This document shows, in pieces, positions 3,511 through 55,674 of a stretch of 64,000 nucleotides of DNA. The position numbers and the translations under genes were made by a program. Below the pieces are notes generated by a model, which was given only the letters and a program-made list of their open reading frames with translations, searched no databases and was not told where the DNA came from. Source of the stretch: Siphonodentalium dalli. Lineage: Eukaryota; Mollusca; Scaphopoda; Gadilida; Siphonodentaliidae. The DNA lies in contig CP136066.1 in the NCBI GenBank assembly GCA_032622095.1, positions 95,687,319 to 95,751,318 of the forward strand, in the 5' to 3' direction. Position 1 is the stretch's first letter; each line of letters begins with the position of its first letter.

Positions 3511-3515
<5 letters not shown>

Positions 3516-3550
3516 GTAGTTCTGGTTATGAATACGCTAAATACGCATAC

Positions 3551-4676: not shown

Positions 4677-4998
4677 CTTGTTCCATGATGGTACCAAACA
4701 CAAGCCAAAGATGATCCATTAACCCCATGTCTTCTGGAGTTGAATTTGCTGGAACCACGCGTGGGTTAAGACGGTTGGTAATAAACAGGACACACCCAAA
4801 CACAAGAATGACAATTACCGTACACACCCAGACTGTCCAGGAGAATGGCCTGAACATCTTGAACATCCGCTCGACTTCATGTTCTTGTGGTCGCAGAGTG
4901 AGGATTGTGTCACCGGTTCCCATGAATGGCCATAAGTAGTCTATGACGCTCTCTCTTATAGCCGTTATTGTAAAATGACCCACACCCAAGTCCACTTC
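4677..4998 (-). CDS. iGluR exon: end of S1, TM1 and pore loop
   Basis: Acceptor attttcttttccag before 4998 and donor GTAAAT after 4677; 107 codons plus one base. It starts EVDLGVGHFTITAIRESVID, the segment carrying the agonist-carboxylate arginine (R in AIRES), conserved. The usual PLT triad is HFT. YLWPFM follows, then TM1 (SWTVWVCTVIVILVFGCVLF), a cytoplasmic linker, and the re-entrant loop LWLVFGTIMEQG. The residue at the AMPA/kainate Q/R-site position is Glu (MEQG instead of MQQG). Confidence 0.97.
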
Positions 4999-5904
4999 CT
5001 GGAAAAGAAAATGCTAACATACTACTTAACATTATTCATTGTCATGTACAGTTCCAGATATCGCTGCCACCACCCCTTCCGCTCCAACACGACAGTCATA
5101 TTGAAATATTTCTATTAAATTTACGCCAGTATCACTCCGGTGCTGTCGAAACAGCTCTTATTTCCAACCTGAATCGGAATCTCGCCACTGCAGCACCGTA
5201 TCGTGACTGGCGTATTCAGTCCACGTAGGGAGGCATGTCATTCATCCCTAATTATTATGTATGAAAACCCCAAGAATCTACAAGATATCCAATTGATTAA
5301 AGGCACGTGCGGCCTTAATTGTCGAAAATATTCATATTTGTTCCAAACACCGTAAACAGAAAAACATTAAAACGCATACATTTCCGTTCATATATACCAT
5401 GACCATCGCGTAAACAACATGTTATCATAAAGACCTACTATATTTTACCTAAGCAAGAGCCTGATTGTGTTACAGAAGACAGCACAATGTTACTGGCCAA
5501 TCACACACAAATGGCATAAACGCTCTTTATTAGTTCCATATCAGGTATTCACCAACAAAGAACGCTCTTTATGTTTACCATCATAATATAAACAAACACC
5601 AGAAAAGTAACTTTTTATGCTTTTGTTTACATAACAATGGTCAAACATATGACCATAACATACTGTTTATGCGATATTTCTTATTTGTATACGGACAAAG
5701 TCTATCTTCATTTTGATGTTCTTTCTGTTTGTGGCGGTTTTTGACGGGTGGAGATATTTTCACAGGATACCCACCGCCAAGGCCAACCGTGTCTTTAAGT
5801 CTGGAACTTCCACTCCTTCTGATCATAGCAATACGTTTGTTACGCTCCGGTTAGATACACAGCAACCATGGGTCCAGTCCCACCAATCAAACTATACATA
5901 AAGA

Positions 5905-11039: not shown

Positions 11040-11545
11040 ACTAAAGCATATTTGATGAGTAGTTATCTCATATGAAATGTTCAGATAATAAGTTCAACAA
11101 TCGACCATAGGTCATTATTGAACTTATTATCTAAACATTTCCCTCAATAAACATGATTCATTCAAATAATAGACAACTCCGATGTGCTCTTTTTACAGAC
11201 TGGGAGAATATATTTATTATAGAAATGGATAATATCGGCTTTGATTATCTAAACATTTCTCTCAATAAACATGATTCATTCAAATAATAGACAACTCCGA
11301 TGTGCTCTTTTTACAGACTGGGAGAATATATTTATTATAGAAATGGATAATATCGGCTTTGATTATCTAAACATTTCTCTCAATAAACATGATTCATTCA
11401 AATAATAGACAACTCCTAATAAGTTCAACAATCGACCATAGGTCATTGTCGAACCTATTATCTAAACATTTCCCTCAATAAACATGATTCATTCAAATAA
11501 TAGACAACTCCGATGTACTCTGTTTACTGACTGGGAGAATCCATT
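11040..11545. repeat. about 117-bp tandem repeat with palindromic ends
   Basis: The unit (ctaaacatttctctcaataa, then acatgattcattcaaataatag, gacaactc, gggagaatatatttatta) is present in about four copies. Two are nearly identical (about 11240-11355 and 11356-11415). The array is bordered by a palindromic motif aataagttcaacaat...attattgaacttatt at 11087-11130 and again near 11418. Confidence 0.8.
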
Positions 11546-13439: not shown

Positions 13440-14640
13440 AAAAGTTAAATACAAGATGGCCAAAATTCGGAAGAAATGGTAAGCTCCCATCTGGAAGACA
13501 CTCCAAAGATCCATATGAAGTTTGGTGACGATCGAATTAGGGGTGTGGCATGTAGGTTGTGCCAAATGATTTATTGATGCAAAAACTAAAATCCAAGATG
13601 GCTGCTGGCGGCAGGAATGTGACCTGTTGGGTGTGCTAAAGGATTTAGTCATACAAAGAGTCAAATCCAAGATTGCCAATGGCAGCCATGTTTTTTAACA
13701 TAATTCGGAAAAAATATAAGCTCCCGTCTATATGTCACCCTGATGATCCATATGCAGTTTGGTGACGATCGGGTGAGGGATGTGACATGTGTGGTGTGCT
13801 AATTGATTCACAACTGAAATCAAAGATGGCCGCTGGTGGCCAGGTTTTCAACCGAATTTGGAAAACAAATGGTAGGCTCCCTTCAAGAAGACACCCCGAA
13901 GATCAATATGCAGTTTAGTGTCGATCGGATTAGATATGTGACATGTATGTATGCTAAAGGATTTAGTCATACAAAGAGTAAAATCCAAGATGACCGCTGG
14001 CAGCCATGTTTTTAAAACAGAATTCTTAAAAACAATGATAGGCTCCCATCTAGAGGTCACCCCGACGATTCATATCAATTTTGGTGACGATCGGATGAGG
14101 GGTGTGGCCTGTAGAGTGTGCCAAAGGATTTAGTTATGCAAATAGTAAAATCCAAGATGGCCGCTGGCGGCCATGTTTTTCAACGAAATTCGGGGGGGGG
14201 GAAATGGTAACCTCCCATCTAGAGGTCACCCCAAAGGTCCATATGAAGATTGGTGACGATCAGAAGAGAGCTGTGACCTGTAGGGTGTGCTAAATGATTT
14301 AGTCATTCAAAGATTAAAATCCAAGATGGCCGCCATGATTTTTAACATAATTCGTAAAAAATTGTAAACTCCCATATAGAGGTCACCCCGATGATCCGTT
14401 TGGTTAAATTTGGGAGAGGGATGTGCCATGTAGGGTGTGCTAATGGATTCAAAACTGAAATCCAAGATGGCCGCTGGCGTCCTTGTTTTTCAACGAAATT
14501 CGGAGAACAAATAATGGTAAACTCCCATTTAGAGGTCACCCCGACGATCCCTATGAATTTTGGTGACGATGGGATGAGGGATGTGGCCTGTAGGGTGTGC
14601 CAAAGGATATAGTTGACGGACATATGCACACATGAACGCA
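13440..14640. repeat. about 165-bp tandem repeat array (eight or so units)
   Basis: Each unit has atccaagatggccgctggcg, a stretch with gaaattcgg, aggtcaccccgacgatcc, ggtgacgatcggatgagg and gtgtgctaaaggatttagtc. Starts fall near 13450, 13590, 13660, 13820, 13983, 14150, 14320 and 14460. It ends in a run of acacggacgacggacaacc. Open frames across it are repeat artefacts. Confidence 0.85.
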
Positions 14641-17591: not shown

Positions 17592-20500
17592 TAGTCCGTG
17601 AGCCAATCGAGATATTTTTCGAGTTGGCTACACCCCCCCCTCCAACAAAGGTTTTTATATATCAAATTAAAGGTCATCATATGGCGCATCAGATTTTGCT
17701 TGTTGCCCGTTTCAGAAAGTGTCCCAAAATAGATTTTTCAGGGAAGACAACTCTTACCCCTAAAATAAAATGAAAATTTACTCGAGTACATGTGTCAGGG
17801 CATAAACACATTATTGCGGTTATAAACTACACAATATATCGTTTATATTATTAAGAAATGATCACGAAATGACACGAGATACAAAACGAGACCATTTTAA
17901 GAGCTAGTTAGAAATAATTGCGATAAATATTTTGAAATCGCGAAAAAATGACTTGGATTTTGAAAACAATTGTCACATATAAATGGCTATAACTTGTGAA
18001 CCACATGGGCTATTGATCCGCAACATGGCTAAAAAATTGCCCTATTGACATATCCAAACGATTTTAATAATGGAAAGCCAAGAGTATTGCTGTGAAAATG
18101 TTATATGAGCGTAAACTTAACCCCACCCCCTAAAATATAACTTTTGCAGAAAAACGAATTATATAGTTTACAATTAGAATGCTGCACGTCAAGTTGTTTT
18201 TAGAAGCATTAACTGAAACAGTGTATATAATGATGAAGGGAATTATAAATAACGGTGTCTGAACGAGATCTAAGATTAAAATTTGAAGAAAAAATTATGA
18301 AAAATGAGAATTTTAACTAATTTCTGTAAAATTTACAACATTGTCATTAAATTTTGATACGCTATGGTATAACTTCACGAGAACACTGGTCTAGATTTAG
18401 TAAGTTCATAAAACCTCATACGATCACCTTTCTGGCAAATAATTCATATATTTTTCAATTTTTACTTGAATTTTTATGGAAATATTATATATATTTCAAC
18501 TGAACACATATGGTTATAATGGTCTATGAGTGAGACTTGTGTTATACAGAATGGTATTTTCTTATTTGTGCCGCGCATGTCAGGACAGTGAGCGCAACTG
18601 ACAATAGATATGGCATTACATGCGCTACATATTTGACAATAAGTTTAGGATGGCATCCAAAACGGCCAATAAAATCGAAGTTTCTCACACTTTCCGTCAC
18701 AAACGTGACTGAGTTGGGACAAGGAAATTGTTAATGATGAGTTAACTGGTAACCGTAAACAAACCGAAGAACCCTACTATTGTTTCTATTAATTTAAGCT
18801 GATGAGTAATTGATTATCTTAAGGACTATAGCTACTCATTTATTGGGGGAATACTTGATAAAAAGATATAGAAATATTAAAACAATCATCACTAACATGT
18901 GCTTTTTGGATCAGTTTAGATAAGTAATATCAATTTATATAAGTTTTCTGAAGAAAATTGAAATTGTATGCCCAAATTACCAGCCTCCAATTTCAAGTTG
19001 CCTATCTCTGATGTAAACATGTGTTCAGGTGAAGTGCATTATAATAACGAAATTAGTTGCTATACAGAGGATTTTTTTGTAAATAAAGAAATGACTTTGC
19101 AGTATATAATATTGTGTTGCCAAACAGTTTTCAAGACATGCTATTACTTCCTGTTCTATAATTTGAGTATCTATAGTCCTTAAATGTTCTCTCACTCTGC
19201 TCATCCTATCAGTCGTCAAAATTTACTCTTTCGGTTATTGTAGACATTCTCACATACATCGTTACATGGTCAGTCTGCATTGAAACAAGATAATTTGTTA
19301 GATTCACATGTATCTTTGCAGCCAAAGCTCAGTAGTCACAGTAGATCGGGAGGAAATATAATCCGACAGGTGTGTAGGACTCAATCAAAGAGCTACCAAC
19401 CATGGCTGTCAGAACATGGTACGCAACGCTGGGGAGTCAGTATGATGTGCCAATCACTGATACAGTGATGTGTTAAGGAGTCTGTGGCTGCTGGTGGTAG
19501 AAGGTGTGTTCCAGTGTTCGGCTACACAACATAAGAACGTGTGCGTTAATTTGTCTAATTGACGACATTATAGCTCACCATAATTTATGCAAACTCTTGG
19601 TGGGATATATAGTGTCATCGTCAATATTAATAGATTGCACAAATTGATGCAAAAGTCGCATCACATTCTACTGCTTTTGACTGCTAAGACAAACGGCTTC
19701 ATTCTATAGGTATTTGTGAATGTCGTAGCCTGACAACGCGTGAATTAGAGGCGAGGTTTCACACACAACTTGAACAATAATGCCCGCTGTGTCATTCACG
19801 GAAATGACACATGACATATTTTTGATTTCCGTATGAAGAATTATCCTAGCTGATATTCATCGTGAAACATTACATTCTAGTATTTCGACATGTACGCGTC
19901 AGGGCAATAAAAACAATAACTAGCGTGTGACTGAGGCGTGCTGCGTTGGCTGCGTGTAACAGCATACATGTATCCGCTTCCTCGTGGTAACATACTAGCA
20001 CGAGATCAGGAATAACTCTAAGCGAACTTCGCCATTGACGGACCGTATCACGTGACATTCGACCCTATGGCAAACATAATTCAGTGATTTTGAAACACCA
20101 CTCGACCATTCGTGAAAAAATAGAAGCCTGTCAAGGAGTCTTTGTTATCACCACCTGATAAATATTTGGCATTGTCTGGAAATGTGTCATGCATGGACAC
20201 AGGATATGTGAAGCCTTGTCTGAATACCAGGATAGTATTCTCGGGTTGCAGGAAAAGGGTAGCATAATGACCTATGAAAAAGAGGTGCAATGTATCATAC
20301 TATGCAACAACTTCAACAATATACTAATATCGATGATGACCTACTTACATCCTGCTTTATGTGACAAGTCGACATGTATTCAAGACGATGAATTACGATA
20401 ATGTTTCTCCTGTTGTAAAACGAGAACAATAACACCAAATGCAGACTTCTTAAGCAACACATTTTTCGTGCAAACTATTAGGCAATTACTTGGCACAATA

Positions 20501-22690
20501 ACTCACACCCATTCTGGAATGCCACGCCCTTATAACCCTATGCAACTTGGGCTTGTATGGAATATATAACCATATATAACATAGCCATGTCTCTAGTACA
20601 TGAGATACATGTTTATGGTTATATGATAACAACACTAGGCACAGTGACATGAGTTGTCCCTAAGGTATGCCCCTTTACCCATGTGCCCGTTTGAGTGTAA
20701 TGTAATTAATGTTATAACATGGACGCAGAGCGGTAATAGTCAGCACCCAGATGCACATGCATAGAACGAATCTATAACCAATGATGAAGCAAGATTCAGG
20801 CGTAATCATGACCTTTCATGCCCGTCGGCTTCATAGCATAGATAAACACCATGCTACTATTATAATATTCGTATTGTTAACATATTCAAATGATTTCAGT
20901 TGACCGAGAATATATACCCACAAGCTGGGCAGAAACATAACAGCTAAATAGAGTAAAAACAATTCCAAACAATCCTGAAGTACTGAACCTTTTGACATGC
21001 AGTGTATCGGATCGCCCCGGTGGCCTGGTCCGTCCCCCAGCGCTAATATATAATCAAGCCATGGGCGTTCTGCTTGTCTACCTCAAGCTTGAAAATAGGC
21101 ATGGCTAAAATGACACCGCAACAGAAGTAACGGTACTGAAAGCATAGTTACCGTGCATGAGATATATGGGTGCATGGGATTATATGGGATTGGTTTTCCA
21201 TGATGGCCATCGGCGGTCGCTTCGTGAGGGGCCCGGAAGTCCTACACACCAACAACGCATTTATGGCACTTCATCCCTATCCAAATGCAGTTATGGAACT
21301 GCTGCGATTTGCAATTGGCTACAATGATTCATGTGAATTGTTGTTATTTGGCGGCCGACATGTCAGGATGTACTGGTGTATGAAATGGAATAACCGAAGT
21401 AGTGCCAATTTTTACTTAACTGGCTACCCTGAGGATGAGCAGAATTATTGGGCATTTTCGTCAATCAATTACTCATCACAATAAATGAGCTGAGACAAGA
21501 TATTAGAGTTCTTTAGTTTGTGGAGCACCAGTGAATGCATTTCTTAATGACTAATTCCCTTATCCGCATATGACGAACCTAGTTTAATTTGTGTCGGTAA
21601 GATTGAAAATATTCGATGTTGGTGGACGTTTTGGACGCCATCTTAAAACAATTATCAAACATGAAGTGTCAGATGCTGTATGTATCGTAATTTGTGTCTA
21701 GTGTCACAAAATGCGCCAGAAAATAAGAAAATATCTCCCTAAAAACGTGAGTCTCACTCATCAGCCTTTGGTAGCCATATGTGACCAGTTGAAATATAAA
21801 ATTATATAATCGGCTTAGTACAGAAATTCAAATAAAAATTGAAAAAATATAAAATAGTTGACAAAAAAGTGATCATGTGAGTTTTTATGAATTTACAAAT
21901 TCTGGACCAGTATCATCGTCTGATTTTTCCATACTCATATAAAAATTTAATCACAATGTTGTACAATTTTGAGAAATTAGTAAAAATTACCAGTTTTCAC
22001 CATTTTTCCCCAAAGTTTCATCTTAGAACACGTTCGGACAAGGTTGTTTGTCATTCCCCTTCATCAATCTCTACACTGTTCCATTTTCTGCACATAAAGC
22101 CTTCTTTGCATGCGGCATTCTAAGTGTAAACTATACAATTAAATTTTCTGAATAAATTATATTTTAGGGGGTGGGGTTAAGTTTATGCTCACAGCGCATT
22201 TCACAGAAATATAATTGGCATTCCATCATCCAAATTGTTTTGTTATGTCTTTGGGGCAATTTGTTAGATATGTTGCGCGTCAATAGCCCATGTGTTTCAC
22301 AAGTTATAGCCAATTATATGTGACACTATTTTTCGCAATTTCAAAATATTTATCGCATTTATTTCGAACTAGCTTATACATTGGTCCAGTGTTGTATCTC
22401 ATGTTGTTTTATGGTGATCTATAATTAATATAAACAATGTCTTGTTCACTTTATAACCGCAGTCATTTTTGTATACGCTGACACTTGTACTCGATGAAAT
22501 TTTTATTTTATTTTAGGGTTAGGAGTTGTCTTCCCTGAAAAATATATTTTAGGACACATTCTGAAGCGGGCAACAAGCAAAATCGGATGCGTCATATAAT
22601 GATCTTCAATTTGATATATAAAAACCTTTGTTGGAGGGGGTGCAGCCAACTTCTAACCTAGAGTCTTTCTGAGAATAGGTCCACGGACTA
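17592..22690. mobile_element. long-inverted-repeat (foldback) transposon, 5.1 kb
   Basis: Left arm 17592-18540 and right arm 21748-22690 are inverted copies, for example catcatatggcgcatcagat at 17674 and its near-complement at 22590. Both ends read TAGTCCGTG inward. The element is flanked by ATA at 17589-17591 and ATA at 22691-22693, a 3-bp target-site duplication. The interior (18541-21747) holds a decayed coding fragment (19870-20255) and otherwise no gene I recognise. It sits in a receptor intron next to the donor of the 22703 exon. A non-autonomous DNA transposon is likely; the superfamily is unknown. Confidence 0.85.
19870..20255 (-). pseudogene. decayed fragment with EEADT..LHA motif inside the foldback element
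   Basis: Minus-strand frames give KYLSGGDNKDSLTGFYF, then after a stop RQWRSSLRVIPDLVLVCYHE and EEADTCMLLHAANAA. I recall, without being able to search, that many invertebrate genomes carry uncharacterised proteins with the order 'FL.GGF.....V......L.S.QEEADTR..LHA...'. Stops and a frame change show decay. Function unknown. It may be cargo captured between the inverted arms. Confidence 0.35.
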
Positions 22691-25439: not shown

Positions 25440-27057
25440 CAGTTATAAAGTCAATTGCCTCATTGCCACTGGTGCTTCTGTGTGAGTGCTCCACTCAACG
25501 ATTTTTTACACGATGGATAAGTCGTATAGGCCATGGCTGTTGGATGCTAATTGCCAACTTAATACGACTTATGCCGATAAGGTGACACCCCAATGGGTCG
25601 CTAAACGTTCAGTAACAATTAGTGTGTCTCCAAATTTCTTGTCGGATGATTGTATCATATTTAGATATATACCCCTGCAATCTTGGGGTAATACTTGCTG
25701 CACCAGAATGGATGTGAGCTAGACTCAAATGCTTCTCAACTCAAATGGGATGGGGCATCTTTCAAATGCACACTGGAAATCCAAAAGAGGAGAGAATATT
25801 GTTATCCCTCCTCTATCTTATATCATTACCCATAGTCTAACCAAAGACACATGTCGCACATGGAGAAATGCTATGGTTGTGATGGCCAGCCTTTGAGTTT
25901 ACGTACAAGGTGTATTTGGGGATCATGGTAAATTTGATATTTACCAGAGTATAGTATCTGTGAGGGTGATGAAGCCGGAATCAGTTCCCCAAAAAAAGAG
26001 CTATATGCAAAAACCCATCTAGCAGATGAGGAGTTCATCAGATCACATTTGATAGCAGCAGTTAACAACAAATTGAACGCCTAAAAATTCATGACCTAGC
26101 TGATAACGAAAGAACAAAGAGGCCAATGACTACCAAATCACATGCAAGTTTTGATGGAACAATGCGGACACTGAGTGATAAATATAGAGAAGTTCAAAAC
26201 AAGTTATCTTGAACATGGGCAGTCTCATTGTTTAGTCAGAAAGGGAAATTACTGAACAAATGTTACGATGAAAGACTCCTATCCAATACCAGGATTAGAT
26301 GAGAGCACTGAAGCATTAAGAGCCTCCGAATACTATTCAGGGGTTGATTTTGTCATAGGATATTGGCAAATCCCGTTTGCAGAGATACTGCTTTTGTCAG
26401 TGACATATGACTGCACGCTCACAATATCAATTCCGATCTATGCATTGTGTCCTTTGTAACTATGGGCCAACAATTGGAAAGTTAATGAACTGGTATTGGC
26501 GTAATTGCAGTGTCACGCATGTATGTTATACATCGACGACGTGTTGGTGTTCTCAAAGACATTTGGAGAACATTGCTCAAATTAGAGAATGTGTCATACA
26601 AAATCAAGGAGGTCGGTTTGAAAGTCTCTCCCAAAAACTCATTTATACCAAGATAATGACATTTCCTGTGACGTATCGTGTCTGAGAGCGATGTGCCGCC
26701 TGTTCTTGAACAAATTAGGGCTTTCTAATCGTGGGTGTCAACCATGAGATGTGAAAGATATATGTAGAACAGTGTCAGGACGCATTCTCCTAGTTAAATG
26801 ATGCATTAATGAAGAACCCAGTACTAAAGTATCCTGACTTAACAAAGACTTTCATAGTGGATACAGACGCTAGCCACCATATCCCCAGAGCAGTGTTATC
26901 ACAACATTTCGATCCCGGAGAATATGCGGTCACATATTGCAGTCTCTATCAAAACCTGAACGCAATTACTGTATTGCAAGGAAGGAATTCGGGGAAGTCT
27001 CGATGGACTGACGCCTGTAAGCTATTACATGTGAGAGTAATAGATCATCTGAGTTGA
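25440..27057 (+). pseudogene. Ty3/Gypsy LTR-retrotransposon pol relic (PR-RT-RNase H)
   Basis: Across several frames, in order, there are: the protease C-terminal signature QNGCELDSNASQLKWDG (about 25704); RT start KDSYPIPGLDESTEALRASE with YYSGVDFVIGYWQIPFAE (26268-26385), matching 'D.YPLPRIDE.LD.L.GA.YFS.LDL..GYWQI'; and RNase H start LKYPDLTKTFIVDTDASH (26827-26878), matching 'L.YPDF.KPFIL.TDAS'. Many stops and shifts. No LTRs, integrase or primer site recognised. The preceding 350 bp may be decayed gag. It lies antisense in the longest receptor intron. Confidence 0.8.
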
Positions 27058-29119
27058 TACACATGCAAATATTTCACTGATTGGTTCGATGCACTGATGA
27101 CAGTTATTGTCTAGCCATTGATAGCCATATTAATGTTTGAGACATTAGCTAGCTCTTGTTCCGTGCACACAATGATCTAGTCTTAAATATCATAGTTACA
27201 TCAGGATAAGTTTATTTATTTCAATTTTACATTTCTCGAAGCTTCTTTCCAAAGGGTGCTGGGGAGGAAGTTTTTCACCTCACCGTCGCAAATGCAACAT
27301 GTCTTATAGTTAGGGAGCCCGCATATGTTCTATTTACACTTTTGCGTACAAAAGGTTTGACCCCCTAAAGTTGGTACCAATAATGGAACATTCTGAAAAA
27401 CCGATTTCTTAAGTTGCGCATTCCTGGGGTTTAGGGGCTGCTGAACCCCAAAAAGTGCCAAAAATCACTTCTATTTACACTTCCGCGTACATCGATGAAT
27501 TTTGGTTTGATGATACTCCTAAGTGTACTCATTAAGAAAACACAACTTAAGAAATGGATTTTCCTGGGGTTTTCAGATAAGAAAGGGGGTCCCATGCTGA
27601 ACCCCAAAACATGATTTTTCACTTTTTTTTACACTTTCGCGTACATCCATAATTTTTGGTCTCAAAGTACTTTGATATATACTAATTATAAAAACACAAC
27701 TTAAGAAGCAACTTTTCCTGGGGTTTTAAGATAAGAAGGAGGTCATCGGGTCACCCCTCAAAACGTAAAAAATCACTTTTATTTACATGATTGCATTCGT
27801 CCAACGTGTGTATATGTGCGTACACCCTGGAACGTTGCACTATTACAACCAATACATCCCTAAATCGATACGATCAACTTAAGAAATATATATTCATGTC
27901 GTTTACCCCCCCCCCCCCCCCCCCCCACAACCCGATCCATTTTCTAGAACTATAAGTGAGCCAGTTTTATGAAAATTATAGCGGGAAAATCTAGTAAATT
28001 GTACACAAATGTATATATTTTCGTGAAGCTAAGACATACTGACACTTTTTTGGGCCAAAATTGAAACTCACCATCCAAGATGGCCGCCAAAATGGCTGCC
28101 GGAAGTTGAAAATATGACATTTTTTCACAAATATCAATTTATGCTGTTTGGAACTGGTTGAGTAATGCAACTTTATTTTGTGTTTTTTATATTAACTGAT
28201 CATTGGAGCAATTAAATAAGCAATTATTGGGGTCCTAACATCTTCCGATCCCTCAAAAATTCGATTTTACAGAACGCAGTACAAAATTTTACAAAAAAAA
28301 AACAATTGAGATTCTAGTCATATTTCAACAAGAAATGAAAAGAACATTGTAATGTAAGTGAGGCATATCATTACCTATGAATATTCCAAATCTATGGAAC
28401 CATAAATCTTACCTTGGCTCAAAATGGCTGCGAAAATGGCCGCTAAAATTTGGAAAATGGTAAATATTGCCCCAGGGTGTCCTGCAATCGCTTACAAGTT
28501 GTGTTGATGTACACAATTGGCTAATCTGTTTTCTATACATTGCATACTAACATGTCTGATGCACCATGGATCATTTTTACTATTGTCACCACTGACATTT
28601 ACCAGAAATATTGGACATAAATATCGGCAAGAATTCACTTTTCGGGGTTCGACCATTTGTTCAAGTAAAATGTAACTATCTTTGGATTGAAAGGTGTTTA
28701 TTGTTTTGGTCTATCTTAAATGTGTCACACTACGGTGTTTATAGACTAAATTGCTCAAGATGGCTTCCAAAATGGCAACCAAATTTGTAAAAATTTAAAA
28801 GTTAACATATCCCGAACATTATTCTCTGCGTTATCCGAAAAAAAGTGGCAAATTGTTACTCACTTGGTTATTGTACGTGTTAGTTACAATGTAATTAACT
28901 GACAACTACGTTGTATTATGTTTGTCCCAGTTCCGTATGGGGCATGACAAATTCATTTTAAAGTTGCAGTATGGAATTTTGCGGAGAACCATATTATTGA
29001 AAGGAAATGGGCAGAACTTTGAGACTGAACTGAGATGAACCATGATATGTGGGTATTCTGGCCCATTATGATAAAAATTTATCAACTGGATACAGGGTGG
29101 AAGCCAAGATGGTAGCCAG

Positions 29120-31485
29120 GGAGTTATGACCATATATGAGGATAATAGGTATACGGGGAGTTATTGTATGGTCGTGAATGGTGTGTGGGTATATAGGGAG
29201 TGCCCTGTTGGTAACGATGGGGCGTATATTTATATATGTTGTGGATGTGTTATCATTGGTGGTGTATGGGGAGTAGATTTATTATCATGGATGGCGTGTA
29301 TGAGTATGGCAAGTATGGAACTTATGAGTGGTCGTATGTGCGGATATTGGTATATCTGGACGGGCTAATCATTGGTGATATGCATATGTAAACCTGGATT
29401 TACTCCATGGTCATGGGTATGGCGAATAGGTATACATGCAGTGGATGTATGGTCCATGTGAGGTGAATATGTATACATTGAGTGACTGTATGATCGTGAA
29501 TGTAGTGAATATGTATACATAGAGTGACTATATGGTCGGGTGTAGGTGTTCATGCATGGTGACTCGTGGCTGTATCGTCATTTGTGGTATGTACGGGTAT
29601 AACCAAGTATGGCTGTATGATCAGGTGTACCAGTACATGTACGTGTATAAAGTGGGTGACTATGTTGTCATTTGTGTGGTGTTTATGTACATATGGAGTG
29701 ACTGGGGTAATGGGTGGGTTGTACATATGTACCTTGAGTGGCTATCGCTTTCCACAATAACTCAAGAATATGTTAATCAATAGAGAGGTCATGTCATATC
29801 GTGGAAAGCGATAGCCACCAATTAACACACAGTCATTACATATATACATAAACACCACATACATAACAATATAGTTACCCACTGTATACATGTACACCTG
29901 GCCCATGACCACGGATGACCATACAGCCACGCGTCACAATGCAGGCACACCGGGTATACTCCTAAACATGACCCATAACCATATAGTCACTCCATGTATA
30001 CCCATTCATCTCACCATTTGCCATAAGGTCATCCCCTGTATACATATTCTCCAAACGCATGGTCAAATGAACAATCAATATATACATCAACACCACAACA
30101 ATGACCATAAAGTCATTCCAGTATACATATGTACATCACCAATGGCCATATAGCCACTCGCTTCATACACATACCCTCACCCATGTTACCTGGTATACTC
30201 CTTCACCTGACATATGGCCATATAGTCACCCCGTGTGTACCTATTCAAAACATTCATACACGATCATGGTCAATCCTTGTATTCATATTCACCCCAACAG
30301 TGGCCATGCCAATCCATGTATTCCTATTTGTCACACCATAGCCGAATAGCCACTAAAGATATACTAATACACCCCAGCCATGTCAGTATAGTCACTCCAT
30401 GTATGCATATGCACCTCATCCATGTCCATATAGCCACTCGCTATATACACATATCCCTCGCCCATGACAATAAAGCAACACGTGTGTGTACTGGTATAAC
30501 CTACACATGACAATACCGACACGAGTCACCAAACAGGAACACCAGGTACATGTATACTCATACGCCTGTCACCACCTGTATAGATGTTCATTACATTTAT
30601 GATCATACAGTCACTACTTGTATACCTACATGTACTCATCTCACCATTAACCATACAGTCACTACATGTATACCTATTCGACACATATAGTCATATAACC
30701 ACTTGATATACGTATTCAGCCCATCATAGACCATATATTCACTCCAGGTATACATGTAACGCTCACTAATGGCCATTCAGCCCTTCCAGATATACAAAAA
30801 ACCCGCACATACCACCACTCAAACAATCCATACTTGCATATACACCTCACACATGACAATTCAGCAATTCACTGTATAATCATACACGCCATCCATGATA
30901 ATACAGCTAAGACCTATACACCCACCAATGATAATACATCCACGATATATATAAATATACATCCCACCCGTTACAACAAGGACACTCCCTATGTACCCAC
31001 ACGCTCGATAATGTCCACCAGCTTACTCCAGGTATTCATATTCAATCATGACCGTACATTCATTCCATATATACCTATACACATTACCCGTAACCATAAA
31101 ATCACTACCTATTTATCCACACACCCCATCCATGATCATACAGACAACACATGTACATCCCACCCATGACCTTACAGTCACTCCATATATACATAATCAA
31201 CACATAGATGAACATGTAGATATATCCATACACCACACCAATGACCATACAGGCACACCGGATGCACCCCTACTGGATATACACAATCATACACCATACA
31301 GTCACTCCATGCATACCGATTCACCTCACACCTGACCATGACCTCTCCCTGTATACCTAGATGCATCTTACCATGGACAACCCACTTATAACCATATAGT
31401 CACTCATTGTATACCTACTAACATCAGTCATGACATACAATAACTCCATGTATACCTATTCACCTCACATATGATCACAGAGTAA
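29120..31485. repeat. inverted minisatellite core of the foldback element
   Basis: Irregular units of about 55-65 bp built from 'catgaccatatagtcactcc' and 'atgtatacctattcacctca'. They read as the complement in 29120-29737 and directly in 29820-31485. The same repeat occurs at 49.8-50.1, 59.41-59.85 and 62.47-63.0 kb. Long His/Thr/Tyr-rich frames here arise from the repeat. Confidence 0.85.
29738..29818. repeat. central hairpin, 18-bp perfect stem
   Basis: GTGGCTATCGCTTTCCAC (29738-29755) and its exact complement (29801-29818) flank a 45-base loop, precisely where the minisatellite changes orientation. Confidence 0.9.
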
Positions 31486-33730
31486 CTCCCTGGCTACGAT
31501 CTTGGCATCCACACTGTATCCTGTAGACATTTTTTTTTATCATAATGGACCAGAATAGCCAACTATTATGGTCCATCTCAGTTCTGTCTCAAATTTCTGC
31601 CCATTTCCTTTCAATAAATATGGCCAAAATCACAAAAGAGGTTCTCGGCAAATTACATACTTTAAAATGAATTTGTCATGCCCCATACGGAACTGGGACA
31701 ACTGGGAATAGAACATGTAGTTGTCAGTTAATTAACTAACACGTATAATAACCAAGTGAGTCACAATTTGCTATCTTTTCGGATAATGCAGAGAATGTTC
31801 GGGATATATGTAAAAAATTAGCATTTTACAAATTTGGTTGCCATTTTGGAAGCCATCTTGAGCTTTGAGAAATTTGGTCTATAAACACCGTAGTGTGACA
31901 CATTTAAGATAGACCAAAACAATAAACACCTTTCAATCCAAAGATAGTTATATTTTACCTGAAAAAATGGTTCAAACCTGAAAACTGAATTTTTGCCAAT
32001 ATTTATGTCAAGTTGTTTTTAGAGAAAAGTCCAATATTTTTGACGATGTCAGTGGTGAAAATAGAACAATTAACCATGGTGCATCAGACATGTTAGCATT
32101 CAATGTATAGAATGCAGAATGGCCCATTTTATACATCAACACAACTTGTAAGCGATTGAAGGACACGCTGGTGTAATATTTACCATTTTCCATATTTTGG
32201 CGGCCATATTGGCAGCCATTTTGAGCCAAAGTAAGAATTTTGGTTCCAGTGATTTGGAATATGCATAGGTAATAATATGCCTCACTCACATTACAAAGTT
32301 CTGTTCATTTCTTGTTGAAATATGACTAGAATCCCAATTGTGATTTGTTTTGGTGAAATTTTATACCCCATTCTGTACAATCAAATTTTTGAGGGATCGG
32401 AAGGGGTTAGGACCCCAATAATTCCATATTTAATTGATCCAATGATCAGTTAATATAAAAAACACAAAATAAAGTTGCATTACTCAACCAGTTCCAAACA
32501 GCATGAATTGATCTAGAAGATATTTGTGAAAAAAGTCATATTTTCAACTTCCGGCAGCCATTTTGGCGGCCATCTTGGATGGTGAGTTTCAATTTTGGCC
32601 CAAAAAAGTGTCATTATGTCTTAGCTTCACGAAAATATATACATTTGTGTACATTTTACTAGATTTTCCCGCTATATTTTTCATAAAACTGGCTCACTTA
32701 TAGTTCTAGAAAATGGATCGGGTTGTGGGAGGGGGGGGGGGGGGGGGTAACAAGTCTCGTTCTTATCAGAAAACGACATGAATATATATTTTTTAAGTTG
32801 ATCGTATCGATTTAGGGATGTATTGGTTGTAATAGTGCAACGTACAAGCGATGTACGCACATATGCACACGTTGGACAAATGCAATCATGTAAATAAAAG
32901 TGATTTTTTTACGTTTTGAGGGGTGACCCGATGACCCCCTTCTTATCTTAAAACCCCAGGAAAAGTTGCTTCTTAAGTTGTGTTTTTATAATTAGTATAT
33001 ATCAAAGTACTTTGAGACCAAAAATTATGGATGTACGCGAAAGTGTAAAAAAAAGTGAAAAATCACGTTTTGGGGTTCAGCATGGGACCCCCTTTCTTAT
33101 CTGAAAACCCCAGGAAAATCCCTTTCTTAAGTTGTGTTTTCTTAATGAGTACACTTAGGAGTATCATCAAACCAAAATTCATCGATGTACGCGGAAGTGT
33201 AAATAGAAGTGATTTTTGGCACTTTTTGGGGTTCAGCAGCCCCTAAACCCCAGGAATGCGCAACTTAAGAAATTGGATTTTCAGAATGTTCCATTATTGG
33301 TACCAACTTTAGGGGGGTCAAACCTTTTGTACGCAAAAGTGTAAATAGAACATATGCGGGCTCCCTAACTATTAGCTCTAAAGTGACATCTGCACTAAGG
33401 CCCATATGAGGTCCCAATAACATAAATATGGTGTTTTTGCAGTTATAATGTTTTAAACTGTTACAAATGTCAAATATGGGCAGAAAACAGAAAAGGTCTT
33501 TAGGAAAAAAATTGCATGAGGTTGTAAACAAATCGTTTCTTGACTCTCGGACCATCCACACACCCTGGCATTACTTCCTGCAGATTTTGAATTTCCCCCT
33601 GATGTAGAGCGATATTTTATGTATTTATCAATATATGTAATGCCTTCTTCCAAATTACGTTGGCACCAGTTAGTAAGTTCAAAAAGAGCTATTTCTGTGG
33701 AAAAAATGAAAACCCCATAGTTTCACCTAC

Positions 33731-43440: not shown

Positions 43441-43759
43441 CATTAGACAGTTTAAGAGCCAACGGTCTCGGACCAAATTGCGGATGAAGATGGATAAAGA
43501 GGCTTTCTGTCGATAATAAGGCCAAATTTCGTCGAACCACATGTTGATAAATACCACGTTTCGGGCAATTTTATACTGTAGTTGACAGTCGTTAGCAATA
43601 TATTTGGGCAATTAATCGATTCTGATAACTGAAGCGGCCTTTCTAAAAATATTGTTGTTGTTGGAATCTGATTATATGTGGACCATCGAATCGGATTATG
43701 TACCTTTAACTTCTATGATGACAAATGCGGTTTTTGCAAACGCCAGTTTAACAACCTAC

Positions 43760-44017
43760 CTATGGTATCGTCGTATACGTATGAGATAGTCCTCCATTTG
43801 TTGAATATTGCGATTGCACAAAGTAAGCGTATTCTGTCAGTGTAGGCAGGAATCGGTCTGAAAGTAGACTCTCCCAGCGACCTCATGGAACATCGACCAC
43901 TCGTAATCAGGATCAAAGGAACCACCATAGTGTTCGAGTGATAATTGACAGTCCCTGCTGTCTCACAGGTGACGATTGCAATCATCACATGACATCCGCC
44001 ATTAGTCAACCTACACA
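43760..44017 (-). CDS. iGluR exon: amino-terminal domain, lobe 1 to lobe 2
   Basis: Acceptor tttcag at 44018 and donor GTAGGT at 43759 bound an 86-codon exon. It encodes a Cys-containing segment (GGCHVMIAIVTCETAG) matching the place in LIVBP-like amino-terminal domains where the receptor region 'C..L..GV.AI.GP' occurs. PLILITSG (like VPHI.T) follows, and it closes with WRTISYVYDDTIG, the counterpart of the kainate-receptor stretch W.TV..VYDDSTG. The exon starts with two bases (TG) of a split codon, so an upstream exon must exist; I could not find it between here and the window end. It ends after one base of a Gly codon that the next exon completes. Confidence 0.85.
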
Positions 44018-44489
44018 CTGAAAACAGCACCATCACGATACACGGATTAATTAAGAGATTTAAATTAAAAATAATACATTCAACCCCATTATATTCAAGG
44101 CCTTTCTCTGCAATCTTGACCCTCAATTAAAATACAGTCAAATCCCAAAATCGTGGGCTATTCGATTAAATGGAGACTGCGCCAATTCAATAAGGTCCCG
44201 GTAATAACAGCGATCTATTATCGATAATAAATTTATATATAGAATAATTGATGTGAGTCGAAGTTCTTGTTAACAGGTTATCTTAATATCAAATTTAATA
44301 ATTTAATATAAATTTACTTTATGGCTCCAGCCATAAACTAAGTTTTGACACTTAATAAGTTACAACACTTAATCAAACTAATGGACGGATATTGGACTGT
44401 GCAACGCATGGCACACATCATCATGGCACACATCATCATGGCACACATCAAGTAGACAATGCAAATATTGTATTACAGGGATGTTCAAT

Positions 44490-48490: not shown

Positions 48491-50100
48491 TAGTCTGGTC
48501 GATAAAAGGTTTGACCTAGAAAAAAATTGGACTAAGTTGGTTTGTATACCATTTTGAAGAGGAATATATCCTCTATAACATATCCAAAATCCGCTAAAAT
48601 CCGCTTTGAGCATTTTTTGTAATTCAAAATGGCGTCCAATATGGCTGCCATTTTCCTATAAGTCAGCTTGAAGCAATTATAGTGAGAACATATTGTCATA
48701 CGTATTCACATGTATACACTTTTGTGAAGCTAAGACATAACGCCACCGTATGTGCCAAAATTGGAACTCCCCCCGTCCAAGATGGCCGCTAAAATGGCGA
48801 CCGGAAGTGGAATTTTAAAGTTTTTCACTAATATATTTTAAGATAAGTTTCTGTGGTTTGGAACTGGTTGAGAATTGTGACTTTATTTTGTATTTAGCAT
48901 GTTAACTGACCATTGGAGCAATGAAATATGCTATTCGTGGGGTCCATACCCCTTCCGATCACTCAACAATTCTATTTTACAAAACGCGGTATAACATTTT
49001 AGAAAAGATCCCCATTGGGTTTCTAGTCATATTTCATCAAGAAGTGGGAAGAACTGTGTACTGTAAGTGATGCATTCTATATCTTATTGATATTCGAACT
49101 CAATGGTACCAAAATTGTCACTTTGGCTCAAAATGGCTGTCAAAATGGCCGCCAAAATATGGAAAATGTTAATTGTTATCCCAGCGTGCCATGCAACCGC
49201 TTACAAGTTGTGGTGATGCACACACTTGACAATTATGTCTTATATAGCTTGACTACTAACATTTCTGATGTACCTTGTGTATTTGTTACTATTTCAACCA
49301 CTGAAATTGCCAGAATTATTCGGAATTTTATGTCACAAACCTGAAATCAAAATCGGCAAAAAATCGCTGTTCAGGTTTGAGCCATTGTTTAAAAGTAAAA
49401 TGGAACTATGTTTGGTAACAAAGATGTTTATTGTTTTGATATGTGTTACATGATGTGTCACACTGAGGTGTTTCAGACAAAATTACTCAAGATGGCTTCC
49501 AAAATGGCAACCAAATTTGGTAAACATTATTATATACATATACATATGTGTATATACGTGGTGTATATGTATGCATAATCAATTGTGACTCACGTGCTAC
49601 TTAATCAACTAAATGTTCTATTCTGGTTGTCCCGGTACCATACGAGGCATGACAAGTTCATTTTGAGGAATGCAATATGGATTTTGCCAAAAACGTCCTT
49701 GTTTTTGAACGGAAATGGACAGAACGTTGAAACGGAACTGAGAGTGATCATATTATGTGGATATTCTGGCCCATTAGCTTCAACATTAATCAACTTAATA
49801 CAGTGTGTATGTCTGTTGAATGTATGGTCATATGCGATGTGAGTAGGTATACATGTAGCTATTGTATTCATGAATGATGTGAATAGTTATACAATGTGTG
49901 ACTATGTGGTCATGGATGGGGTGTCCATGGTGAGGTGCATATATGGTGAAGTGTGATGTGAACATGTTTACAGTGAGTGTCTGTCTGGTCATTGAAATGG
50001 TGTATGGCCATAACGAGAGCGGCTACACTGTCATGTATGTCTATATGGAGTGACTGTGTGGTCAGGGGAGGGCTGTACATGTGTACATTGGGTGGCTGTA
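48491..50100. mobile_element. single arm and minisatellite of the 27-33 kb element family
   Basis: It begins TAGTCTGGTCG after TTA. 48650-49520 is a diverged copy of the 28.0-28.8 kb arm (gatggccgctaaaatggcga, ttacaagttgtggtgatg), and minisatellite follows from 49800. The minisatellite is interrupted at 50100 and resumes at 59411, so a 9.3-kb insertion split it. No right arm was found. Confidence 0.65.
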
Positions 50101-50349
50101 ATGAGAAATTCAAGATGGCGTCGTAAACAAACAAAAAAAAATTTGGTGGAAAATAAAACTCAAATTTCTTCTCTTATCCAACGGGATCGGTAATAATTCT
50201 AGTGGCAGATGATATACAACTGAACCGAGAAACCCTACAACTGAAATTCATTCTAACACAGTAAGGTTTAAAGCGTAATTTGACTGTAATTTGACTCTAA
50301 ATTCCTAGCCGATTTCGGAACACCTATTCTCGTGATACGATATACTAAA

Positions 50350-51308
50350 ATGCCCGGCGACAAACGACCCCCGGCAAGTTCCACGTCCAGTGTCAGTGGC
50401 GACGACAGCATGCACGGAGACCCGCGGAATCCCACATCAAACAGAACGAAAGGCATGCCGCCAAAGAAATTAAAAACGTCAGAAATTAAAAAAAATCAAC
50501 AGAAACTGAACTTTGTTACAGAAACCGAGATAACACAAACGAGTTCTTTAGAGGCAGCTCTGGCACAGATTAACGCTAAACTCGACACAATGGTGACGAA
50601 AGATTACCATGATCGAAGCATCGAACCCCTTGTTAAACTTGACAGCCTCAATGAAATAATCACTAAACTAAAAACTGATTTTGATGACAAAATTGAAGTA
50701 GTGAAAGATGAATGCAGAGGTAGAGTGTATAATACAGAGTTGAGGATGGATGCACTGGAGAAGCAAATGGGTGGTCTGAGAAAAGATGTAGAAAACAGAG
50801 ATGATAAGGTGAAATCACTGGAAAGAGAACTGATAGTACAAAGGGAGAGAAATAACAAACTGGAACAGCAGACACGAAAGGACAGTATCAGGATTTTTGG
50901 TATAGCAGGGGATAGCAACACAGAAACATTGGATGAGTGTGAGAAAAAATGTGTTGCCTTACTGAATGATAAATTATCATTGAACATAACCCAGATTGAC
51001 ATCAGCATAGCACATAGAATAGGTAAATTCCTACCAAACAACCACAATTTCAGAAGCATAATCTGTCACTTTGTTTCGCGAAGAACAAAAAATGCTGCTG
51101 TGAGTAACAGAAGGCTTCTCGAAGGCTTCTCAATGGCTCAGGAATTGTTATCAAGGAGGACCTTACTGAACTCAACTCTGACTTGATGAAAAAAGCAAAA
51201 GAGAGATCAGATGTAACAGACACTTGGTCAGTTGGAGGAAAGGTGTATGTTAAATACAGTGATACATCAAAGAAAGTCAAGCAGATACAAAAATTATCTG
51301 ATGTGTAA
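50350..51308 (+). pseudogene. LINE ORF1 (coiled coil + RRM-like), frameshifted
   Basis: Start ATG at 50350. The N-terminus is basic and Ser/Pro-rich. A coiled coil runs about residues 75-180 (LEKQMGGLRKDVENRDDKVK and similar heptads). Then comes an RRM-like core with DSIRIFGIAGDS, IAHRIGKF and SIICHFVSRR, and a C-terminal basic domain. The family binds LINE RNA in the retrotransposition particle. The frame breaks at 51110-51131, where the 11-bp gaaggcttctc is duplicated in tandem. The C-terminal domain (SGIVIKEDLTELNSDLMKKA ... KVYVKYSD) continues in the shifted frame to TAA at 51306. Confidence 0.85.
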
Positions 51309-54300
51309 CTTGTATGTGTGCACTAACTAGCACACATGAACTTACAAAATAATAAACTGTTTAAATGGGCAAAATTGAGCTCATGAATATGCATCCATCA
51401 TTTGTTTTTCATTAGAATGATGAATTTTGTAAATAATATTGACATTGTTACTTTGTTTACAAGCTTAACTCATATATGTAGTTATAGATGAAAAGTTTAA
51501 TATGCAGTTCTGCAAGAATACAGTTGTCCATCTGAATACATATGCAAAGTATAAAGCATAACAGTATTTCATAGCAATGTAAGTGTATGTATGTATATGT
51601 GTGTATGTATGTGTATGTGTGTGTATATGTGTATATATATGCATATATATGCAAATATATGTATATATGTATGTATGTATGTATATATATGTATATGTGT
51701 GTATGTATATGTATGGGTATATATAAAAATATTTCCACATCAGTGTTCCAACTAAGGTTATATATATATTGCACACTAAGACTGATATCTGAGTTCAAAA
51801 CAGCAAAACATGAAATTTTGAATATTGCAAAATGGTCATCCATTAATCAATCACCAAATATTCTTCGCCACAATAATACTTTATGAAGAAAATGTAATCT
51901 GCATGTGATAACAATCATAAATGATTCTATTAATTACCAGGTCTGAAATAGCAGAAGAAAAATATTTATATCATAATATTATTAATTATTATATTATATC
52001 ATATCATTATGATATATTTGGAAATATTGTTGGATTTCGTGTTGAAATAGGTATTATAGTGTAACTAATGGTGGAATACAAAGTGTGTGTTAAAATAAGA
52101 ATTTCAGTTTCATCATGTAAAATACCTTACTTTTGAATAAATACTATTACCCCATATTAACTTAATAACAATCAAACAAAAAAGATATATCACTAAAATA
52201 CCACCGAAACAGCACAAAGTCCATAGATATACTCTGGATGCCTATGTCATGCTATATTCCTGTCATATCATTGCCATGTATTGAGATCTAGAAATATTTT
52301 GCGGGGCCCTTAGAGATGGCATTTATTTTTATCCAAAAAGGCTCTGAAGTTACTCAGGGCTATAAAATAATCTTGTTGATTATAATGGAGACAAGCCGGT
52401 TGGTATGAATTCTGTCCAAAAAAAAAATAAAAAAATTCTCAGCTTTCACAAACTTGGACAGGAAACATTACTATTTATAGTATACTACAACAGTTCTGAT
52501 TGAAACACGACACAAAATATATATGGCAACAATTCTAATTTGTTATGAATTCTGTCACAAGGGAAAAAAAAATATATATACTGTTTCCAAATTTCAATTC
52601 AGCTTCCATAACACCTGGACAGGAATTGTTACTATTAATAAAAAGTTGATGACCGAAATGTTTATGATTGAAAAACTAAATCTATATATGTTTATATATA
52701 TATATATATATATATATATGCATGTATATGCATGTATGTATGTGTATATATATGTATATATTAAAGTGATCAATTATATCCGGTATGAATTATATTACAT
52801 AAGAAAACTAAACTTAAAAAAACAAAAACAAAAACAAAAAAACTTCATCCTCTAGAAACTTAGACATGAAATGTAACTCTCTGTAGAATATTTACAACAT
52901 TTTGGATTTAATAATTGGAAAACAAACAATAAATATATATATAGACAAATAAATAATTAACAGACAAAATTTCCTCTTTCGTTAAATATTGTGTCAGCAT
53001 AACAAATAAATATCCCGATTGTTATGGAAGTGCTGTATGAAATAAATAGATCATCTCTAGGGGTCCTCAAATTATTCAAGGAGACTCTCTGATTATGTGA
53101 TGCCGGAACGAATCAGTGTACTTACTATTATAGCAAGACGGAACCTGACCATCAACTAAATGTTATTCACCTAAATTCACCATCATGAACAGAGAATTAT
53201 AAGAACTTATAAAGATTATACAGTTCCACATATTCCACATTAGGCTATACATGTATATGTAAGTGTTATAATTATATGCATATGTTATAGGACCCAAATG
53301 ATGTAGTCATACAGCAGAATACTATACTATACCATACTGTACTATACTGAACAGTGCTATACTATAGTATACTATGTTGTATTATTCTATGATGTAGTAT
53401 ATTATACTATACTATGATATACTGTACTTTACTATGTTTATCATACTATACTGCACCGTGATACATGTGTATACTATGTTATACTATACCGTACTATACT
53501 ATAGTACTATGCTGCGGTGTACTATACTATACTAGTATGAATTTGGGTTGTCCCTCTTTATTTACAAAGATATACATACAGAAACTTCCATAAATATGTC
53601 AATACTGTAAAGGATAGATAATAAACTGTGCCACTTTATGAGTAAAAATGCATTTGTACACAGAGGTTGTAATCACTGACTGTTGTGCTGTTTTTTAAAG
53701 ATATTTTTGGGGTTCTGGGTATATAGTATTGACAATACTATATACCTAGAGCTCCAGAGGGGTCTGGAGAAATGGCATAGCAGTCGGTGATTCCAACTTC
53801 TGTGCATTTGTAGCTAGCCACATAGCTTATAGATTTAGTCCAGAATCCCTATTGTGGCTATGGTGTAGTCATAGTGGAGAATAATGGTATGCTCTTCATA
53901 TAAACTTCAATTTGGTGCAATTCATTGTTTCTCACTCTGTGCATACCATGTGTAATTAGTCACATAGTTTATAGGGGTCTTGTCCAGAATCTCTTGTCTG
54001 GCTACTGTACAGCCATAATGGATATTCATGGTATACATGTAACTTATATAGCTTGATACTATTCAGTACCTCTCATTCGGAGCAAATCATTATTATTACA
54101 CTCTATTGCAAATAATGTTATTGTTTTCTGTAACTACTGGTACCTATCACTGTGTACCACCCTATGCTAGCTATACTAATACAAAGTTGTGTTATCACCC
54201 TTTATTTAGAAAGTCCAGAAATATCCATACTTATATCAATTATATGTCACTATTGCTCGAGATGGAAATTAAACTAAGTCATTCCACGAGTAAAACTCTA

Positions 54301-55360
54301 TTCATTTGGGATCTAGTCACATATTGTGTATAACTATTTAAAATCTCTACTCTGGCTACCCCATTTGGATCTAGCCACATATTCTGTATATCTAGTCAAA
54401 ATCTCTACTCTGGCTACCGTGTACTACCGATTAGAGTGGAGAATCGTCAACCATGCTGGCATGATCTACATAGCTAGGTATATTATTATTCGCATTGAAC
54501 TCAATAGACCCAATTGCATATTAGAACATAATTACTAATTCACACAAAAATGCTACTTACCATCCAGCTGGAGCCAATATCCACAAAAGATAAACGCATA
54601 AATGCCTGTTGGATAAATCATGTTTGTCACATAATTATTATTGTCTTCAATCAGTCAATGCACGCTGTATTCAAAGATTATTATTATTTCTTTAAATCAA
54701 CTGGCATTCACCTATTAACTCCATCCTCAACATGTACACAAATCATCGAAGATAATAGAATGAATTATATATTCCAATTAAGAAGTATTCCCGGCACATA
54801 AGATGATAAACGACAAGTTCTCGACACAGGCTTTCGGCGCAACAGGTCGCGCGTCATCGTGTGTCTACACTTCACTAGTCCGAGAGGCAGGATACATACG
54901 TGCATCAGGTGACAAACAATCATAATATTTAGAAGTGTTGGGTTCATCACGGAAAGATACAGTAAGCGCGAGAACTGTCGTGCTCTCTTGATAATTTCCA
55001 ATGTTGTGGATGGGGTGGTTTGGGGTGATAATGCCGAAACTCAATAATGGGTATTGATCAACATGCATGGATGCCATATGCATATATACCGTTGTATATG
55101 TAAAAATATATACATTTTATGCACCTGTGATTTACATATGTAATTTGTATATGAGCTTACTCATCCTTGTTAATAATTATTAATTATTTATCACTATGTA
55201 TACATGCCATATGCATATATACCGTTGTGTGTATATATGTATGAATATACATCTACAGATTGTATGCACCTGTGATTTACATATGTATATGAGCTTATAC
55301 TCATCCTTGTTGATAATTATTCATCTATATAATCTTTATTTGATAACATATTGACACCAG
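51309..55360. repeat. repeat-rich spacer between LINE ORFs
   Basis: Contents in order: TATG/TGTATA microsatellite 51580-51730; three units of about 200 bp with 'tatgaattctgtc' and 'ggacaggaa..ttactatt' at 52390-52900, enclosing a (TA)n/TATG run at 52690-52760; TACTATACTA repeats 53310-53540; four units with 'tagccacatag.ttatag' and 'ctctggctacc' at 53790-54440; a tandem duplication of about 120 bp (gcatatataccgttgt, gcacctgtgatttacatatg) at 55075-55330. No coding frame with family features. Confidence 0.7.
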
Positions 55361-55474
55361 GTTGGTCCAGGTCTTCTCGTGCTGAGGCCGACTGGGATGT
55401 TGGGATGGCGAGATGCTGGCACCGCGCCATCCCAGTATCTTGGCTGGATTTAGTACGAGAGGACTTGGACTAAC
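55361..55474 (+). ncRNA. predicted structured RNA segment upstream of ORF2
   Basis: GTTGGTCCAGGTCTTCTCGT (55361-55380) can pair over its full 20 bases with ACGAGAGGACTTGGACTAAC (55455-55474); the three non-Watson-Crick positions are all G-U. Inside, GGGATGGCG (55402-55410) pairs with CGCCATCCC (55425-55433), and ACTGGGATG (55391-55399) can compete for CATCCCAGT. It is GC-rich in AT-rich surroundings and lies 200 bp before the ORF2 start. It is likely part of the 5' UTR (translation, packaging or self-cleavage role unknown). Confidence 0.5.
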
Positions 55475-55674
55475 AACAGGTATGCTATATTTATACTTTC
55501 ACCAGCATTTCACGGATAAACCTCATATTGATATAATTCCACCAAAACTTGAATTAATATTTGGTAAAATGATATTCGTATTTGTTTCCATGCATACGTA
55601 TCGATCTTCCGCACGACAACATAAACATATGGCGATACCGGGGCGTACATTACAACAATTTAGAAATTTCAACT

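Follow-up and report, generated by a model that had tools for sequence, protein, structure and literature searches.

The 64,000-nucleotide stretch of contig CP136066.1 of Siphonodentalium dalli analyzed here (the window) contains a 6065-bp palindromic unit at 27307-33371, which is very probably a non-autonomous foldback (long-inverted-repeat) DNA transposon of the cut-and-paste kind, moved in trans. Many copies dispersed through the genome have its inverted termini, length, and layout, and most of those examined carry 3-bp duplications at their flanks; the unit is therefore interpreted as a transposon. A first-pass annotation of the window had described a 6.1-kb palindromic element at this position; the inverted termini and the TTA on both sides showed that the element is real and that its coordinates were exact.

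Structure and genome-wide copies of the element

Read inwards from either side, the element begins with 5'-TAGTTAGGGAGCC, starting at 27307 on the plus strand (left terminus, 27307-27319) and at 33371 on the minus strand (right terminus, 33359-33371). The target-site duplication TTA flanks it at 27304-27306 and 33372-33374. The arms extend over 27307-29126 (1.82 kb, plus strand) and 31482-33371 (1.89 kb, minus strand), and from the end inwards are composed of about three tandem repeats of 141-154 bp, a poly-C tract near 27.91 kb and an inner part. The tandem repeats lie in a left outer domain of 598 bp (27307-27904), in which the motif TTTACACTTNYGCGTACA starts at 27333, 27474, and 27628 on the plus strand, and are mirrored in the right outer domain (32771-33371, minus strand). 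The inner arms lie at 27905-29126 (plus) and 31482-32770 (minus). The terminus and the subterminal motif both occurred within the window far above chance.

The host assembly (2.23 Gb in 9 contigs) was searched with the terminus and with the arm. A 21-bp terminus with at most two mismatches was found at 1212 places (581 + 631), counted as termini and not as complete elements, and a reversed-pattern control was found at none. The arm query gave 3882 first-look candidates, and the 40 that were scored, including the window copy, had identities of 93-100%. The copies were dispersed over many contigs. Among 100 exact terminus places listed, 22 convergent pairs lay within 30 kb; 14 of these spanned 5.85-6.12 kb and the other eight spanned 0.68, 0.69, 1.95, 4.58, 5.46, 6.84, 7.00, and 12.3 kb. 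Scans of viral contigs and prokaryote genomes, neither of which is expected to hold an animal genome and from which records close to the genome of the window may have been left out, gave no match.

The 20 best-scoring copies after the window copy were fetched; they are best matches rather than a random sample. Both ends were identified in 20 of the 21 copies, the window copy counted, and L033, whose right end was not found, was omitted from the count of target duplications. A 3-bp duplication was present in 16 of the 20 both-ended copies (about 0.4 expected by chance, by our estimate for AT-rich flanks), and its sequence varied (TAA, TTA, ATA, TAT, ACA, CTA, and CCA). Lengths of 2-8 bp were tested and no duplication of 5-8 bp was detected in the 20 copies. 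Duplications of TA or AT were also considered and then dropped in favor of 3 bp, which accounts for 16 of 20 copies.

The longest stop-to-stop frames in the 19 fetched both-ended copies had 120-202 amino acids. Several long frames recurred at the same place, as expected for close copies, and a 42-bp unit in the core corresponds to 14 codons, so core frames readily stay open. None of ten frames compared with Pfam (four from the window copy, one of them crossing the element end, and six from other copies) scored above the curated cut-off; the best score was for NUDIX_2 (E 0.07), below that cut-off.

Arm-to-arm exchange and the minisatellite core

The two arms of the window copy were 92.7% identical over 1805 ungapped columns, with a further 108 gap columns. 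Identity was 98.1% in the outer 904 columns (17 mismatches) and 87.2% in the inner 901 (115 mismatches), and it dropped abruptly at 28208, where a change point gave a log-likelihood gain of 43.8 compared with at most 8.6 in 500 shuffles. The first-pass description of near-perfect arms thus fits the outer half but not the inner half. Its statement that they match base for base over long stretches was borne out by identical runs of 151, 128, and 99 columns; the homopolymer tract near 27.91 kb, said to match as well, is present in both arms, but with one substitution between them and with 22 bp adjoining the tract missing from the left arm.

Recent origin or gene conversion had been offered as explanations of the likeness, with the suggestion to ask whether the arms evolve together. 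Arms were compared among 19 copies including the window copy, with L031 and L033 omitted. A left/right difference was scored as nearly fixed when the commonest base exceeded 80% on each side, and columns with more than six gaps among the 38 arms were excluded. Nearly fixed differences occupied 60 of 892 inner columns (from 28209 onward in the left arm) and none of 897 outer columns. In the inner arms, identity between copies was 96.8% for left-left and 96.5% for right-right comparisons, and within-copy left-right identity was 89.5% (87.6-90.9). The inner arms of each copy differed by 9-12%, and they did so in the same way in all 19 copies, so their divergence predates the spread of the copies, and they hardly exchange sequence. 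Recent origin does not explain this pattern. The idea that the inner arms decayed after insertion, with outer conversion in the window copy alone, was dropped because the 19-copy comparison indicated an ancestral inner difference. L024 was an exception within the inner zone, with three private variants in both arms at 28223-28373, like one converted tract.

The outer arms behaved differently from the inner arms. Private variants were present in both arms of one copy at 11 sites in eight copies (19 pairs); between the left arm of one copy and the right arm of another, six were shared in 342 pairs, a rate that corresponds to 0.33 expected within copies. In the terminal 594 columns, within-copy left-right identity (98.4%) exceeded left-left identity between copies (97.9%) and left-right identity between copies (97.7%), and none of 2000 random pairings reached the within-copy value. 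At 27936-28208, within-copy identity (96.6%) exceeded left-right identity between copies (96.1%). Identity to a related subfamily, called B (48491-62998 in the window), was 75-76% both in 27936-28208 and further in, and arm likeness in this segment is therefore not due to slow change; B does not have the terminal domain, which this comparison thus does not reach. These statistics show sequence exchange between the outer 0.9 kb of one arm and that of the other, within a copy or its immediate lineage. The simplest account is conversion between arms, either in the copy itself or in its immediate source, and the earlier suggestion of gene conversion was upheld to that extent: the arms evolve together over the outer 0.9 kb and, apart from rare exceptions, not over the inner 0.9 kb.

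Several observations weigh against these interpretations. Some of the 11 shared variants belong to the same copy (three in L039 and two in L034) and are not independent, and a Poisson figure overstates their strength; the excess could also partly reflect exchange in a shared source and not in each copy. Within-copy identity at 27936-28208 was below the left-left value of 97.2%, and the left arms whose best match was the right arm of the same copy numbered only 6 of 19 in the terminal part and 4 and 2 of 19 elsewhere. Four of the 20 both-ended copies were without a 3-bp duplication; three had no match of 2-8 bp and one fits either 2 or 4 bp (TATA). Sampling by likeness to the window arm under-represents older or rearranged copies. 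An autonomous partner or transposase was not found in the frames scanned or in the frames read in the 12.3-kb terminus pair, and no genome-wide transposase search was run. That pair had been considered as a long or autonomous version; it is in fact two neighboring copies in opposite orientation.

The core (29127-31481) is a degenerate minisatellite with a unit of about 42 bp. The first-pass annotation had it flip orientation around a hairpin, and this proved correct: at E < 0.01, all five units left of the center were on the plus strand and all 27 to the right were on the minus strand, with the switch at an inverted repeat (29738-29759 and 29797-29818, 95% complementary). The G-rich strand is accordingly plus in the left half (29127-29737) and minus in the right half (29819-31481), with a guanine-cytosine skew of +0.52 and -0.49, respectively. 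The 120 nucleotides around the switch, which include the central hairpin (29738-29818), fold at -39.4 kcal/mol under RNA parameters. The halves are unequal in the window copy (611 bp and about 1.66 kb), and the cores of the other copies were collinear with it at 92.6-97.9% identity. The left half measured 608-636 bp in 18 of the 20 both-ended copies and 586 bp in L039, and L022 had an extra 314 bp without a minisatellite match. The right half measured 1628-1721 bp in 19 of the 20; the right core of L031, with a hinge match of only 73%, was not mapped. With lengths that vary so little from copy to copy, the minisatellite is an old array which the transposon has carried with hardly any change, and it is not actively changing. 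The expectation that the palindrome would be unstable was thus not borne out for the minisatellite in the copies examined.

Paired YY1-like sites

The motif AANATGGC occurred 53 times in the window compared with 12 expected. Its same-strand neighbors less than 60 bp apart were exactly 12 bp apart in 10 of 10 cases, all in the window copy or in B. The resulting 20-bp YY1-like pair (AARATGGC twice, with starts 12 bp apart) recurs about every 340 bp in the inner arm, at 28077-28096, 28421-28440, and 28757-28776 on the plus strand (doublets 1 to 3) and, in the right arm, at 32557-32576, 32203-32222, and 31840-31859 on the minus strand (doublets 1 to 3). In 24-bp windows, the doublets of the two arms matched B in 66 of 72 and 67 of 72 columns (92-93%), compared with 74% for the rest of the arm, and 12 of 1156 and 10 of 1201 circular shifts matched this conservation. 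Wider doublet windows gave 100 of 111 columns in a similar comparison, against 686 of 993. Copy C (195-1800) is a smaller, diverged palindrome of the family whose arms are 72.5% alike. The doublets matched its left arm in 38 of 44 columns both times (p of about 0.02-0.03), a smaller excess than against B; for the right arm, 39 of 48 and 38 of 48 columns matched, which was not significant. Separately, about six tandem repeats of 169 bp at 13617-14613 hold four AAGATGGCCGC, a YY1-like motif shared with the foldback arms.

According to excerpts of the report on the lancelet transposon ProtoRAG, its inverted repeats hold a YY1 site, 5'-GCCATCTTG-3', that affects transcription and recombination (PMC7481187). 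The complement of that site, CAAGATGGC, occurs in the window element. ProtoRAG is described in the same excerpts as encoding its own transposases (PMC7481187), whereas the YY1-like sites of the window element are paired, repeated, located in the inner arm, and recognized from the sequence alone.

A broader proposal, which we advance tentatively and think rather unlikely to hold, joins the two-zone arms (a 0.9-kb converted outer part, a sharp border, and left and right inner arms that evolve separately) with regularly spaced YY1-like pairs whose conservation between two separately amplified subfamilies exceeds that of the surrounding arm. If it were true, conversion would be confined to whatever part of the arm end processing exposes, and a host zinc-finger factor would be used by a whole group of foldback elements. 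The family offers a large natural experiment on how foldback arms stay alike: the sharp zone border and the private variants shared across arms could make the length and rate of conversion measurable over hundreds of copies, and the minisatellite, seemingly the unstable part, is the part that is nearly constant. YY1-like pairs common to two separately amplified subfamilies are a testable lead on the use of a host factor.

In the main reading of the element as a foldback transposon, a transposase encoded elsewhere would recognize the termini and perhaps also the 141-154-bp subterminal repeats. Conversion might occur when an excised or broken element is repaired from its own other arm, or by way of cruciform pairing. 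The minisatellite core would be a passenger, an old array already present inside the source element, and use by a host factor or by the transposase may explain why the paired YY1-like sites are kept.

Classification, alternatives, and related elements

The element is best read as a new family of a known kind, within the structural class of foldback transposons. It shares with that class long inverted repeats that make up most of the element, tandem repeats (141-154 bp in the inverted repeats and the 42-bp core), and target-site duplications at copies dispersed through the genome. The window element also resembles the Drosophila FB and sea-urchin TU elements in its foldback layout with tandemly repeated arms. 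Target duplications of Mutator elements are about 8-11 bp long, those of PIF/Harbinger are 3 bp with the sequence TWA, and CACTA/EnSpm elements have CACTA/CACTG termini and a 3-bp duplication. The element is not a member of the Mutator or P superfamily, given a duplication that is 3 bp in 16 of 20 copies and without a match at 5-8 bp, the P superfamily (Galileo) having 7-8 bp. Nor is it a CACTA element, its termini being TAGTTAGGG. Its duplications have the length typical of PIF/Harbinger, but all seven sequences listed above occur and not TWA alone. A literature search by titles, mostly in open journals, returned no such element from animals beyond Drosophila, and the family may be described elsewhere or in a repeat database.

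Within the literature compared, Tetris of Drosophila virilis has the closest described plan (PMC4079207). In the excerpts of that report, Tetris is a non-autonomous foldback element with target duplications of 8-10 bp, for which the authors suggest Mutator. Its inverted repeats are composed of a terminal domain, internal tandem repeats seemingly derived from it, and an inner domain, and no transposase was found for it there, as with the window element (PMC4079207). Tetris repeats are about 220 bp long, whereas the window element has 3-bp duplications, 141-154-bp repeats, and in addition a 42-bp core (PMC4079207). Galileo, of the P superfamily, resembles the element in the excerpts available in having inverted repeats that are long and restructured and that expand through tandem duplication, recruitment of inner sequence, and transfer of sequence from one inverted-repeat end to the other; it differs in its 7-8-bp target duplications and in having copies with transposase segments (PMC4168063).

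Long arms and signs of arm-to-arm conversion would also be expected of a one-off inverted chromosomal duplication, a segmental palindrome whose arms are converted as in sex-chromosome palindromes. The 1212 termini, the target duplications, and a unit of similar length on many contigs are decisive in the other direction, and we regard this alternative as highly improbable. Palindromes are in general hard to assemble, and the first-pass annotation had raised the possibility that the assembler duplicated one arm. We give this almost no credence, given that the arms are 132 substitutions and 108 gap columns apart, that 19 copies show the same differences specific to the left or right arm, and that nearly all copies have core halves with the same inequality of length; for the family, the doubt is answered by these non-identical arms together with the duplications in 16 of 20 copies and the 14 of 22 listed pairs at 5.85-6.12 kb. 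A host role, for example as a source of double-stranded RNA if the palindrome is transcribed within a glutamate-receptor gene, is improbable. Ligand-gated channel exons are present on the minus strand at 3458-3817 and 4669-5013, but placement of the element inside that gene depends on a weak, sub-threshold ligand-binding match at 43716-44126, and the copies lie on many contigs.

More weight is due to a composite origin, a variant of the transposon reading, although we lean against it. Here the 598-bp outer domain would be a separate small transposon (the 0.69-kb form) that captured an older arm-plus-core. Consistent with this, two 0.69-kb copies (L043 and L044), flanked on both sides by TATA or TA, each join the left outer domain to a short right end, and in both the break falls at the same junction. 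Another copy, L045, is a palindrome of the outer-left and outer-right domains with a 0.78-kb insert and CCA flanks, lacking both the inner arm and the core. In the window, the inner arm also occurs in B and copy C, which have no significant match to the outer domain. However, the terminus of B shares TAGT and AAAAGGTTTGACC with that of the window element, and tandem duplication may instead have lengthened the end; the short forms could have arisen from the 6-kb form by deletion; and the high likeness of the arms extends 300 bp past the junction. On the evidence of the short forms and relatives, the family is modular, with an outer domain, an inner arm, and a core.

Among the relatives, copy C has short stretches between its arms that resemble core units and occur in both orientations (1125-1151 on the minus strand scored by the unit model, the rest by reading). 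B has its terminus at 48491 and one arm plus core at 48637-50100. Its core continues at 59411-59865 and 62491-62998, and all 16 of its units at E < 0.01 are on the plus strand. B is apparently interrupted by a LINE-like (long interspersed nuclear element) insertion at about 50.1-59.4 kb, with endonuclease and reverse transcriptase at 55573-58788; a further DNA element with CCTGG at both ends (by reading) lies between core pieces at 59866-62490. Genome-wide, B gave 6921 first-look candidates, with 98% identity for the best other copy, and its terminus was found at 848 + 854 places (none for the control). The view of B as an old copy of the window family was rejected; it is a separate, abundant subfamily with close copies. 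Among its exact termini listed, none had an inverted partner within 30 kb (judged by eye for exact ends), compared with 22 such pairs among the 100 places listed for the window family. B-type copies may be one-armed, and if they truly are, the palindrome may have originated when a one-armed element was duplicated in inverted orientation.

A second foldback-like element lies at 17592-22690, with arms of about 1.05 kb that are 77% alike and ATA on both sides. Its left terminus is TAGTCCGTGAGCC, and the element gave 1306 first-look candidates genome-wide. Its termini agree with those of the window element at 10 of 13 (left) and 8 of 13 (right) positions, and among 1538 TAG starts in the window, three agree at exactly 10 positions. 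Eight pieces of its open reading frames matched no Pfam family, and a literature search by motif also returned no family; one of the pieces, at 19870-20064 on the minus strand, reads HEEADT... and is likewise without a Pfam match.

The channel exons at 3458-3817 and 4669-5013 are those of an ionotropic glutamate receptor (Pfam Lig_chan), with best PDB matches to AMPA-type chains. Directly left of the window element, at 26794-27057, is a fragment matching RT_RNaseH_2, as in Gypsy-type elements. A region resembling a hAT-type transposase (63000-64000, by reading) abuts the last core piece of B, and a 118-bp tandem repeat at 11126-11416 has 2.5 copies with 99% matches.

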